A stretch of 29,822 bases of DNA from a virus. The notes beneath the pieces were generated by a model. The model worked only from the letters and a program-made list of their open reading frames with translations, was not told where the DNA came from and searched no databases. Numbering within the stretch: position 1 is the first letter of the stretch; each line of letters begins with the position of its first letter. The DNA is taken from IMG/VR virus record IMGVR_UViG_3300030101_005054, positions 1 through 29,822 of that record; one strand, written 5' to 3'. The position numbers were made by a program, and so were the translations under genes. Below, piece after piece: positions 7,499 to 16,343 of the stretch.

Positions 7499-8005
7499 CT
7501 AATTTTCGTTTTTAATTTCTTCATGTTCAATAATTTTTTCTTGGTTCACAATATCAATATTATTTTTTTTCAGTTCGTTTAATCTTTTAATTAGTTCATC
7601 TCTTGGCAAGTTTTCAATTGAATTTTCTAGTCGAATTGTTGGGTCATACAATCCCCCAACTTTTCCCCTTAATTGTTCGGCGTTTATTGATGCTGAATAA
7701 TGTTTATCTTCTTCGGCTTTTCTTCCAAGTTCTTCTAATCTGTTTAAGTGTTTATCCATATTAACAGAATATTTATTTTTCAATTCATTTTTCATGTCTT
7801 GAATTGCTTCAGCTACTAATGGATATTTATTTGGATCTTGCAATTCATAAGCCATTTTTTTGCTTACTGTTTCACTGTAACCGCTTTTTCTTGCTGATTC
7901 TGTCGCCGATTGTTTTCCCATTAAGGTATAATGACAAAATTCATAAACAAAACGTAATTGTTTCGGTGTAAGCTTTCTTGCTTTTCTTCCATCAACTATT
8001 TGCAT
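7499..8005 (-). CDS. terS: Terminase small subunit
   Basis: 168 aa from the ATG at 8005. A longer form from a TTG at 8041 would add a 12-residue hydrophobic stretch that looks untranslated. The N-terminal half has the DNA-binding helix-turn-helix typical of the family: LTPKQLRFVYEF, then SATESARKSGYSE, and A-Y-E-L-x-D-P-N-K-Y-P-L-V-A-E-A-I. The second half is a helical oligomerisation region ending in an acidic, Asn-rich tail. It should recognise the packaging site and load the large subunit. No strong Shine-Dalgarno is seen. The repeat-rich control region lies directly upstream. Confidence 0.82.
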   Translation of the reverse strand: MQIVDGRKARKLTPKQLRFVYEFCHYTLMGKQSATESARKSGYSETVSKKMAYELQDPNKYPLVAEAIQDMKNELKNKYSVNMDKHLNRLEELGRKAEEDKHYSASINAEQLRGKVGGLYDPTIRLENSIENLPRDELIKRLNELKKNNIDIVNQEKIIEHEEIKNEN

Positions 8006-8067
8006 TACTAAACAAATAATTAAAAAACTTTTATTTTTCAATAAAATTTAAATTTTATTACATTACT

Positions 8068-8223
8068 AGTGTAATAAATGACACTACTCAAAAAATAGTA
8101 GTGTATGCCAAAACTTGTTTATATTAAGCCATTTTTCAAGACTTGTTACACTTGTTACACTAGTTTTAATAATTTTTGGTTTATAAAAAATATTTTTGAA
8201 AATAAGTGTAATAAGTGTAATAA
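8068..8223. repeat. Cluster of TTRTTACACT elements with a hairpin
   Basis: The 10-mer AGTGTAATAA occurs at 8068-8077, 8205-8214 and 8214-8223. The opposite orientation, TTGTTACACT, occurs at 8144-8153 and 8153-8162. The last two pairs form perfect 9-base tandem repeats. Between them lies a perfect 8-base stem, ACACTACT 8081-8088 with AGTAGTGT 8097-8104. The cluster sits between the divergent small terminase and a nuclease gene. It may be an operator, a promoter control region or an iteron-type replication origin. Confidence 0.6.
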
Positions 8224-8231
8224 AATATCAT

Positions 8232-8552
8232 TTGGACGGAAAACACAAAAAAGGATTTGTTAACCATTTAAGGGCTATTCAGTGGCTAACTGAACAAGAT
8301 TATATTGTATTTAATAATTTATCAAGTTTAGGCGATTGCGATATTGTAGCAATGAACACGAACGGCGAAACGCTGAAAATTGATATTAAAACAGTAAGCA
8401 AAAGAAAGAATAAAAGTGTTATTTATAGATCGCCAACGAAAGAACAAAAAAAGAAAAATATTTGTCTTTTGATGGTCTATGATAATGGAAAATGCGAATT
8501 GATACAGCAGCCAAATAAAAGGGGTAGAAAACCCCTTTTAAAAGATAAATAA
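8232..8552 (+). CDS. PD-(D/E)XK nuclease-like protein
   Basis: 106 aa. The pattern KHKKGFVNHLRAIQWLTEQD, then GDCDIVAMN, then LKIDIKTVSKR matches small endonuclease-like proteins of the PD-(D/E)XK fold: Asp in the G-D-x-D-I strand and Asp-x-Lys in the next. The open frame reaches a TTG at 8196, but the extra residues (SVISVI) come from the tandem 9-base repeats, so the TTG at 8232 is the better start; neither has a good Shine-Dalgarno. Relatives include archaeal-type resolvases and homing-like nucleases. The 3' end carries a hairpin that can serve as a terminator. It is a lone plus-strand gene between minus-strand blocks. Confidence 0.65.
   Translation: MDGKHKKGFVNHLRAIQWLTEQDYIVFNNLSSLGDCDIVAMNTNGETLKIDIKTVSKRKNKSVIYRSPTKEQKKKNICLLMVYDNGKCELIQQPNKRGRKPLLKDK
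8517..8539 (+). terminator. Hairpin terminator inside a coding end
   Basis: AAAAGGGGT (8517-8525) pairs perfectly with ACCCCTTTT (8531-8539) around a 5-base loop. It lies within the last codons of the nuclease gene and 15 bases before the stop of the converging minus-strand gene. T-runs on both sides allow use in both directions. Confidence 0.6.
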
Positions 8553-12115: not shown

Positions 12116-13294
12116 ATGAAGCTTAGACACTTAGACCTTTTTTCAGGCATCGGCGGATTTAGCTTAGGGCTCGAATCAACTGGTGGATTTGAAACAGTTG
12201 CTTTTTGTGATATTGAAAAATATTGTTTACAAGTTTTAGAAAAAAGATTTCCCGGCGTTCCCCGGTACACGGACATTAAGGAGTTGAATTATGACAAAAT
12301 TAAATCAGATGGACTTTTTCCCATCGACATCATCACAGGCGGATACCCTTGCCAACCTTTCTCCGTCGCAGGTAGAAAAAAAGGTGAAGAAGATCCAAGA
12401 CACCTCTGGCCAGAAATGTTTAGACTTGTCCAAGAACTCAGACCGTCTTGGGTTATTGGAGAGAACGTTAGTGGACACATTAAACTCGGTCTCGACACCG
12501 TACTCAAGAACCTGGAGAGTGAAGGTTACTCCGCAAGGACGTTTAGTATTTCAGCTTCGAGCGTCGGCGCAAACCACCAAAGAGAAAGAGTCTGGATTGT
12601 GGCTAACGCCAAGCAAGACAATTATCTCGAACAGGTCCGAAGAAGGAATGAAGAAGAGAGCAGAATTCAGAAAAAGTATAGGGAGGAACACAGTCAATCC
12701 AGGCAATTTAGCGGAACAAGTGAAGTATGGCAAAAAAGTAACGGACATGAAAATGTGGAGGACACCAGACAACATGGCAGGAGGATCGAACCTTCCGGGG
12801 ATCAAGAAGGCACTCAACGAGGGTCATTTGAAAAGACCAAGCGGTCATCAGCTGCAGATAAGACTTCAAGATCAGGTACAGGAGAAGAGACTTTGGCCGA
12901 CACCAAGAGCTTCGGCAGCGATGAACGAGAATTTGAAAACAATCGAGAAGAGAGTTATGAAAAAAGGATTTCTAGGAGCAAAATTAGAAGAAAAAGTAGC
13001 GATGTGGCCAACGCCGAATGCATCGGACAACAGAGACAGGGGGAACCTGTCAGACCCAGCAGTTCAACGAAGGATAGCGATGGGCAAACAAGTTGGTCTT
13101 ACGATGGCAGTCAAAGAGCAGAAGGGTGGTGGAACATTGAACCCGACGTGGGTAGAGTGGCTCATGGGATACCCAAGCGGGTGGACAGACTTAAGTGTCT
13201 CGGAAACAGTCTCGTCCCACAAATCCCCTACTACATCGGACTTAGCATCCTCCGAACTTACGACATGGCCAACACCAGCTGCGAGGAGCTTTAA
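12116..13294 (+). CDS. DNA (cytosine-5) methyltransferase (Dcm family)
   Basis: 392 aa with all key motifs in order: motif I DLFSGIGG (7-14), motif IV G-G-Y-P-C-Q (catalytic Cys79), motif VI ENV (116-118), motif VIII QRERVW (155-160), and motifs IX/X with RVDRLKCLGNSLVP (356-368). The target recognition region, about 165-335, is very polar and carries V-A-N-A (162), V-E-D-T (214), L-A-D-T (260) and V-A-N-A (297) repeats. It transfers a methyl group from S-adenosylmethionine to C5 of cytosine, most likely to protect phage DNA from host restriction. The last 1004 bases are also read in the +1 frame by the next gene. GC content is clearly higher than in the neighbours. The C-terminal DMANTSCEEL lies in a repeat of the other frame. 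Confidence 0.92.
   Translation: MKLRHLDLFSGIGGFSLGLESTGGFETVAFCDIEKYCLQVLEKRFPGVPRYTDIKELNYDKIKSDGLFPIDIITGGYPCQPFSVAGRKKGEEDPRHLWPEMFRLVQELRPSWVIGENVSGHIKLGLDTVLKNLESEGYSARTFSISASSVGANHQRERVWIVANAKQDNYLEQVRRRNEEESRIQKKYREEHSQSRQFSGTSEVWQKSNGHENVEDTRQHGRRIEPSGDQEGTQRGSFEKTKRSSAADKTSRSGTGEETLADTKSFGSDEREFENNREESYEKRISRSKIRRKSSDVANAECIGQQRQGEPVRPSSSTKDSDGQTSWSYDGSQRAEGWWNIEPDVGRVAHGIPKRVDRLKCLGNSLVPQIPYYIGLSILRTYDMANTSCEEL
12278..12283 (+). promoter_or_regulatory. Internal Shine-Dalgarno for the overlapping gene
   Basis: AAGGAG stands seven bases before the ATG at 12291, inside the methyltransferase coding sequence. This is an ideal ribosome binding site for the second reading frame. Confidence 0.75.
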
Positions 13295-13505
13295 ACTTCC
13301 AAGAAAACCAGAGACGATGGCTAAAACAAAAAGAAATCCATTAACTAATACTTTGGAAGATGCCGTTCAACATAGAGAAATGTTTCCAACACCATTGAGT
13401 AGAGATTATAAAGATCTTGCAGTGAAACCATCATGGAAAGAAAAGAAACAAAAAAATTTACCTGTTATTGTTGCTGAAAGAATGTGGGATAAAAATGATA
13501 AGTGA
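12291..13505 (+). CDS. W-x-T-P repeat protein overlapping the methyltransferase
   Basis: 404 aa read in the +1 frame of the methyltransferase from 12291 to 13294, then alone for 211 bases. It has an N-terminal region with TWRVKVTPQGRLVFQL (74-89) and six repeats headed by W-L-T-P (Trp104), W-R-T-P (156), W-P-T-P (202), W-P-T-P (239), W-P-T-P (326) and F-P-T-P (365). Each is followed after about 25-45 residues by an L-x-x-x-V close. NPTWVEWLMGYPSGWTDL lies at 284-301. I recall proteins with the same W-P-T-P-x-A-S-D repeats and the same N-P-x-W-V-E-W-L-M-G segment in many phages, usually beside cytosine methyltransferases and with unknown function. A perfect ribosome binding site and continued repeats beyond the overlap argue for translation. 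It may assist or modulate the methyltransferase; that is inference. Confidence 0.75.
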   Translation: MTKLNQMDFFPSTSSQADTLANLSPSQVEKKVKKIQDTSGQKCLDLSKNSDRLGLLERTLVDTLNSVSTPYSRTWRVKVTPQGRLVFQLRASAQTTKEKESGLWLTPSKTIISNRSEEGMKKRAEFRKSIGRNTVNPGNLAEQVKYGKKVTDMKMWRTPDNMAGGSNLPGIKKALNEGHLKRPSGHQLQIRLQDQVQEKRLWPTPRASAAMNENLKTIEKRVMKKGFLGAKLEEKVAMWPTPNASDNRDRGNLSDPAVQRRIAMGKQVGLTMAVKEQKGGGTLNPTWVEWLMGYPSGWTDLSVSETVSSHKSPTTSDLASSELTTWPTPAARSFKLPRKPETMAKTKRNPLTNTLEDAVQHREMFPTPLSRDYKDLAVKPSWKEKKQKNLPVIVAERMWDKNDK

Positions 13506-15310: not shown

Positions 15311-15444
15311 TTTTTGCAACATAATGTAACTTTTTTTAAAAAATTATTTGAAAACTGTTAAATTGTGCTCATTAATACCAATATAGATAATATAAAAGTT
15401 GTGTTTTTTTAAAAATGACTCAACTTATTAAAGAAAGGATAACT

Positions 15445-15663
15445 ATGACTGAACATAAAATATCGATTGAAAATGCTCTTGGTTTTGGAAAAAAGGCTGA
15501 GGACATTACACTTGATGACTTGCTTAATAGGTTAAGCGAGATCGAAACGCTTGATGAAACTGGACAATTACACAAGCCTTACGAACCAATGTCCAGAAAG
15601 ACAAAAATCGTTCAACTAATGGTGTTGATCGAAAACCTTAGCCATGATGCACCAAATGGCTAA
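15445..15663 (+). CDS. Unknown small protein (72 aa)
   Basis: AAAGAAAGGA, then nine bases, gives the ATG at 15445; an ATG at 15415 lies ahead of this Shine-Dalgarno and is not used. The protein is acidic and helical: ISIENALGFGKKAEDITLDD, then LLNRLSEIETLDE. The next gene overlaps its end. Function unknown. Confidence 0.6.
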   Translation: MTEHKISIENALGFGKKAEDITLDDLLNRLSEIETLDETGQLHKPYEPMSRKTKIVQLMVLIENLSHDAPNG

Positions 15664-15868
15664 ATTTAAACACTTTAATCCTCAATCGTCATTAAAAAGA
15701 AATGACACTACTAACAAGAGGATTAGAGAACTGTTAAGAAAAGGCACAGTAATTGGGACCGTACATAATGGTCCCGCAACTTTACAGTATGGAAAAATTA
15801 GGGACATTGAATTGGTAATCACTGTTTCAAATCCAGGTGGTGAAGTTTTAAAAGTAGAAGAGTTTTAA
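15644..15868 (+). CDS. Unknown small protein (74 aa)
   Basis: Starts within the end of the gene before it. The ATG at 15644 and the one at 15656, which overlaps the upstream stop, are both possible and neither has a Shine-Dalgarno. The core LRKGTVIGTVHNGPATLQYG then IRDIELVITV has the alternating strands of a small beta-barrel. No family recognised. Confidence 0.5.
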   Translation: MMHQMAKFKHFNPQSSLKRNDTTNKRIRELLRKGTVIGTVHNGPATLQYGKIRDIELVITVSNPGGEVLKVEEF

Positions 15869-15869
15869 T

Positions 15870-16117
15870 GGTTTCCCATAGAGCTAATGGGAAAGGATGG
15901 CTGAAAAAGTCTGGCACAGGACTAAGGCACACTCCTAGGGAAGCATGGACAAATGTCTGAGGTAACTAGGGTTGGTACTAAAGTAGCGTAAAGTCATGTA
16001 AAAAGTGATGTGTCGTGAAACAGTTGGGGGTAGGGTCACACTGAATCCCCCTCCACTTTTAAAGGTATGGGGCAGGAGGAAAGTGAATTAAGGGAAAATC
16101 TTGCCCCATATCTTTAA
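15870..16117 (+). ncRNA. Candidate structured RNA
   Basis: A 248-base gene-free stretch, distinctly richer in G and C than its surroundings. Perfect or near-perfect stems: TTTCCCAT 15872-15879 with ATGGGAAA 15887-15894; CCTAG 15934-15938 with CTAGG 15966-15970; GGGGGT 16026-16031 with ATCCCC 16045-16050 (one G-U). The largest pairs 16062-16074 with 16102-16114 over 13 bases (one G-U). No open frame of note crosses it. It does not show the signatures of tmRNA, tRNA, RNase P RNA or a group I intron. A terminator array or an origin are alternatives. The last stem also lies at the end of the minus-strand helicase unit and may stop it. Confidence 0.4.
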
Positions 16118-16118
16118 T

Positions 16119-16343
16119 TTAAGTATTTTTTCCGTTTGGGTCAAACATTTTCGTTTCAATGCAATGTAAATCATAAGAAAAAATTTGTATATTTTGAGCT
16201 CTAGCCCACTCCTCGACCCAAACAGATTTTAATTCCTTTTTAATTAGGCAATCATTTTCGCCGTATGTAAGCTCGGCCATATGCCTTACTGTCTCCAATT
16301 GTGGTGTGGAGAAAAAAATCACTAGTACCCAAATTTTTATCAT
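16119..16343 (-). CDS. Small protein with hydrophobic N-terminus (74 aa)
   Basis: Begins MIKIWVLVIFFSTPQLETVR: a short hydrophobic start like a signal or anchor, then a soluble part with two Cys (N-D-C-L-I and L-H-C-I-E). Its start overlaps the stop of the zinc-finger gene (ATGA). Its layout resembles that of the 65-aa gene two places upstream, so the two may be distant relatives of one exported type. Confidence 0.55.
   Translation of the reverse strand: MIKIWVLVIFFSTPQLETVRHMAELTYGENDCLIKKELKSVWVEEWARAQNIQIFSYDLHCIETKMFDPNGKNT

Follow-up and report, generated by a model that had tools for sequence, protein, structure and literature searches.

The sequence analysed here, referred to throughout as the window, is the whole of the 29.8 kb (29,822 nt) IMG/VR viral record IMGVR_UViG_3300030101_005054. 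Since a terminase, portal, AEP-type primase, helicases and DNA polymerase A are all encoded in it, the window was assigned to a tailed phage, which appears to be marine given the cyanophage and published distribution of manA RNA. A first-pass annotation had drawn attention to a gene-free, GC-rich stretch of 248 bases in this AT-rich genome. At these positions (15870-16117) the GC fraction is indeed 0.452, compared with 0.320 window-wide, a value equalled or exceeded by 3.4% of 248-base windows in a scan of the window. No ORF of at least 40 aa lies between a 74-aa ORF (stop at 15866-15868) and a minus-strand gene ending at 16119, and the flanks are as described, with small plus-strand genes before the stretch and the end of a minus-strand unit after it. 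A search for tRNA and tmRNA found none. Another clear GC peak in the window corresponds to methylase genes at 12.1-13.5 kb, where a plus-strand frame at 12116-13294 encodes a C5 cytosine methylase (PF00145, E 3e-46) and an overlapping plus-strand frame at 12291-13505 matches phrog_1008 (E 2e-36). Both frames match phage methyltransferase families, and about 1 kb within 12116-13505, with a GC content of 45-49%, is apparently coding in two frames.

The region from 15865 to 16130 has a minimum free energy (MFE) of -78.4 kcal/mol (z -2.47), with none of 200 dinucleotide shuffles as good, and in the scan of the window no 248-base stretch was more stable than the 15870-16117 region. A conserved small reading frame, which the annotation had named as one of the observations that would speak against an RNA, was not found: 15870-16060 holds no stop-free frame longer than 41 codons, and all frames are interrupted in each of 39 homologues. 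An Rfam search, also proposed in the annotation, identified no family in the window at curated gathering cut-offs. In E-value mode, manA RNA (RF01745) aligned end to end with 15874-16059 at 24.2 bits (E 4e-4), with the invariant letters CUGAA.AA, UAAGG and GGGUA..AAUCC in place; the gathering cut-off for this family is 55.2 bits, which the window RNA does not reach. The annotation had described the element as a candidate new class and could match it to no named one, because its best match, manA, scores so far under the cut-off; it is instead a divergent relative of manA RF01745, below the gathering score. The hammerhead and group I intron were considered by their core sequences, which were unmatched. 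A strict canonical manA pattern gave no matches, blastn of the RNA against isolated phages gave nothing useful in the isolate-phage collection, and a pattern scan of genome contigs gave mostly chance matches, the best of which scored 15.5 bits (E 0.11) with a model of canonical manA (R1, below).

Relatives were obtained by scanning viral contigs with the pattern ATGGNCAAATGNCTGAGG, derived from the window RNA, which matched at least 120 contigs; the whole RNA is present in about 110 of the matches listed. This pattern put no pairing demand on its two free positions, yet a standard pair joins them in 109 of the 111 listed members, and all four Watson-Crick types occur. From 39 class members, with the window left out, an alignment (A3) was made, in which the consensus comprises 22 pairs, 15 of them with changes on both sides, and 97% of cells are paired. 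None of 500 shuffles covaried as well, and slid controls gave 31-51%. The covariance model derived from A3, R2, found the held-out window at 95.5 bits (E 4e-16) in a match spanning 159 bases (15897-16055), a score to be read with the caveat that the class members had been gathered by an 18-letter pattern also present in the window. The next R2 matches in 0.84 Mb were to manA-like RNAs in L110 (40.3 bits at the top) and L068 (35 bits), all others, canonical manA among them, scoring at most 19 bits. The structure still holds when the window and 97 others are included, in an alignment that was fitted to the model. The window was assigned to the class by the match to R2, trained without it, together with the AUGGNCAAAUGN'CUGAGG hairpin. 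On these sequence matches the class is widespread in viral contigs, with at least 100 overlooked relatives that mostly fall below the Rfam cut-off. L068 itself, a T4-like phage contig found with a pattern made from the invariant blocks, carries at 7937-8380 two tandem manA-like RNAs and then a terminator-like inverted repeat with a long loop; a probable gp32 ssDNA-binding gene lies downstream.

Taken together, homology, covariation and the absence of an open frame bear out the annotation of a phage structured RNA, which occupies 15870-16059 on the plus strand and is predicted to consist of a 5′ hairpin, a closing helix and three arms. The 8-base stem noted near the start was exact: P1, an 8-bp 5′ hairpin in the MFE fold (15872-15879 with 15887-15894), has equivalent hairpins in homologues. 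The sequence AATGGTTTCCCAT in the 5′ part of the RNA is common to the window and L360. P2, the closing helix, is weak in the window, with 3 bp (GGA at 15895-15897 with UCC at 16052-16054); it lies outside the R2 model, and its class mean is 4.9 bp versus 2.0 with 3′ strands swapped between sequences. At least two further stems had been proposed between the outermost ones, and these are backed by covariation in the homologues. The P3 arm, CUGAAAAA..UAAGG (15900-15928), has outer pairs between 15900-15902 and 15926-15928 and an inner stem of 15908-15912 with 15919-15923. Like the P6 arm, GGGGGUA..GAAUCCCCC (16026-16051, pairing 16026-16030 with 16047-16051), it is drawn from the Rfam manA alignment, covariation and R2. 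The P4 arm (15930-15975), present in the MFE fold and in R2 with some window pairs mismatched, surrounds a conserved hairpin (15947-15950 with 15955-15958, AAAU loop), and its signature, AUGGACAAAUGUCUGAGG (15945-15962), is the site of the covariation in 109 of 111 listed members. P5 (15977-16024) is a variable region outside the covariance model and is predicted in the single-sequence MFE fold only. The invariant blocks of the class are CUGAA.AA/UAAGG, AUGGNCAAAUGN'CUGAGG and GGGU..AAUCCC.

The 248 bases had been treated as a single unit; they comprise two elements, the RNA and a separate long hairpin at 16060-16117 that adjoins the minus-strand stop at 16119. The stem noted at the end is present, but it is longer than the 13 bases given for it (19 bp with a 21-base loop in the MFE fold) and is kept in a close relative that lacks the RNA. 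This relative, L003, whose helicase is 97% identical in protein to that of the window, matches the window up to 15328 and resumes from 16062 with nothing between, its sequence running directly into the end hairpin; the hairpin therefore exists without the RNA. It may serve as a shared terminator of the convergent units, although a simple terminator scan did not call it and a clean T run is absent. A 16-codon ORF, MGQEESELRENLAPYL (16068-16118), starts in the 5′ arm of the hairpin and stops just past the 3′ arm, and was not tied to the RNA because it is also open in L003.

The sequence missing from L003 is a cassette of ~740 bp (15325-16062, plus strand) with two small ORFs and the RNA, and its empty site there indicates that the RNA arrived together with the two genes. 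These plus-strand ORFs, of 82 aa (15415-15663) and 74 aa (15644-15868), have no assigned function, and the second has relatives in L062-L065, which are without the RNA. The RNA was absent from the other phage relatives examined, with a best R2 score of 13.8 bits in L002-L065. A search of the relatives' records with RF01745 also gave no match, but this is weak and the absence rests on R2, because the same search misses the window's own RNA.

Genomic context across the family was surveyed with simple ORF, promoter and terminator rules. A sigma70-type promoter matching at least 10 of 12 positions lies within 60 nt upstream of 91% of 99 canonical manA loci, versus 1.4% for shuffled sequence, so that canonical manA probably forms the very start of its transcript. 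For the window RNA no promoter of its own was recognisable, the best candidate matching 8 of 12. Terminator-like sites follow 30 of 87 canonical RNAs (4 when shuffled) and 14 of 64 class members (3 when shuffled). Genes lie on the strand of the class RNAs about equally often upstream (55/67) and downstream (65/74), and since this agreement is alike on the two sides, gene order alone is no proof of cis-regulation. Twelve divergent class members have, directly after the RNA, a ribosome-binding site, an ORF of 8-10 codons and a terminator-like hairpin overlapping its stop, a predicted layout that is attenuator-like, of the leader-peptide type. These members are L353 (10024-10130), L390, L403, L351, L393, L359, L396, L347, L327, L349, L392 and L374; their mini-ORFs have a strong Shine-Dalgarno sequence, encode MLIIVLDPW, MFIVLDPW, MIVIVIDDW and similar peptides, and end in a TGG-TAG that sits in the 5′ arm of the hairpin. 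Some members have a strong promoter for the next gene after the RNA, or no near gene, which, like the strand counts, speaks against a simple leader role. In L339 and L414 a T run closes the RNA, and directly behind it comes a TTGACA..TATAGT promoter serving the next gene, which encodes a P-loop ATPase (GDSGSGKT). In L347, L353, L374, L390, L327 and L393 a conserved TCTCGATATAGTAAGTA-like motif, possibly a phage RNA polymerase promoter, was seen after a T-rich stretch some 50 nt before the RNA. Downstream of canonical manA, a recurrent element, GACCTAAGATGCAACTC...GAGTCGGGCAGATGGTCTTTT, was observed in L128, L140, L195, L212, L213, L223 and L226; in L223 it matched no Rfam family at gathering score.

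In the literature manA is regarded as a likely cis-regulatory RNA of 5′ UTRs that could be a riboswitch, and no ligand is named there (PMC2864571; PMC9964418). The usual role of a 5′ leader cannot simply apply in the window, because there is no downstream gene on the strand of the RNA. We propose that the structured noncoding RNA encoded at 15870-16059, which belongs to a divergent manA-like class, is probably regulatory and is 3′-terminal or stand-alone here. Members of the family would act as a regulatory domain, recognising a ligand or protein; in most phages this domain would be placed at a transcript's 5′ end, or close to it, and would control termination or translation downstream. In the window it may be the 3′-terminal part of the two-gene cassette transcript or arise from an unrecognised promoter; the transcript would end at the 16060-16117 hairpin and could act on its own mRNA or in trans. 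Points against this explanation are that a model of canonical cyanophage manA (R1, below) by itself misses the window, that the Rfam score is below the cut-off, that P2 has just 3 bp and that the best promoter matches 8 of 12 positions.

The main rival is that an ordinary manA-like leader or riboswitch is left here without the gene it regulated, either through loss of that gene or because the cassette entered this phage without it, and is functionless. The frequency of ORFs of at least 40 aa starting no more than 60 nt from the RNA (55/87 canonical and 28/64 class loci) argues for a leader, as do the 12 members with attenuator-like mini-ORFs and terminators, and the lack of a plus-strand gene after the window RNA and its absence from the phage's relatives are consistent with stranding. 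However, the window RNA retains all invariant blocks and a high model score and has therefore not yet decayed, and its nearest homologue, in viral contig L409, is likewise without a near downstream gene, having no ORF until +278. The two RNAs are 80% identical over 128 nt and share a G-C outer P3 pair; L409 differs in having a clean intrinsic terminator 52 nt past the RNA and P1 and P2 sequences of its own. A functionless leader was considered somewhat unlikely. It is also conceivable, if unlikely, that manA-like RNAs are not primarily 5′-UTR riboswitches but discrete RNAs of phages, many of them equipped with a promoter and terminator of their own, that would travel between phages in small cassettes and exert their effects in trans, on functions of the host or the phage, in which case the window and L409 would be gene-free examples.

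That the class is independent and merely convergent on manA-like motifs was judged quite improbable. R1, for which 25 cores of canonical cyanophage manA were combined with the Rfam structure (two-sided change at 28 of 49 pairs), gives no match to the window RNA; R2 scores canonical manA only 17-19 bits, and the P4 arrangement differs. Against convergence, intermediates of the L236 type are recognised by all three models: Rfam manA gives L236 80.2 bits, above the cut-off, and L236, L242 and L244, first picked out by a further pattern, are found by R1 at 42-45 bits and by R2 at 46-50. The window's 20-mer, ATGGACAAATGTCTGAGGTA, recurs unchanged in L236 and L242 and with two letters altered in L244. 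This subclass has all the invariant blocks, and their order and sequence agree, although its P4 is longer than that of the window and its outer P3 pair is A-U rather than G-C. The class was joined to manA on account of these intermediates. Among other class members tested with Rfam manA, six scored 24-43 bits, below the cut-off, and four had no match at E 0.5. Chance folding of a GC-rich remnant or small coding region, for which the single-sequence z of just -2.47 might be cited, is refuted by the covariation unless the alignment is wrong, and with no open frame in any homologue and the held-out model match it has a negligible probability.

Since 2010 manA has stood as a riboswitch candidate without explanation, reported chiefly from cyanophages and marine metagenomes. 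Far more sequence variation with which to define the manA core and its partner is provided by a large divergent class, most of which escapes standard annotation, and the new contexts, namely attenuator-like mini-ORFs, gene-free copies and the empty cassette site, open its mode of action to testing.

As described by Weinberg 2010 (PMC2864571) and updated in Rfam 14.3 (PMC7779021), manA RNA RF01745 is, like the window RNA, phage-borne, and the two share, in the same order, a 5′ hairpin (P1) and a CUGAA.AA/UAAGG arm with outer pairs, followed by a P4 arm, a P5 arm and a 3′ arm, GGGUA..AAUCC (16026-16051 in the window); the closing helix of manA, well supported in the homologues, would correspond in the window to the 3 bp of P2. 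They differ in P4, which in canonical manA has two hairpins and in the window is shorter, with a single GGNC-AAAU-GNCU hairpin; for this reason, and because it scores below the Rfam cut-off, the window RNA is named manA-like rather than a formal member. They differ also in setting, manA being commonly found in potential 5′ UTRs (PMC2864571), whereas the gene next to the window RNA lies on the opposite strand.
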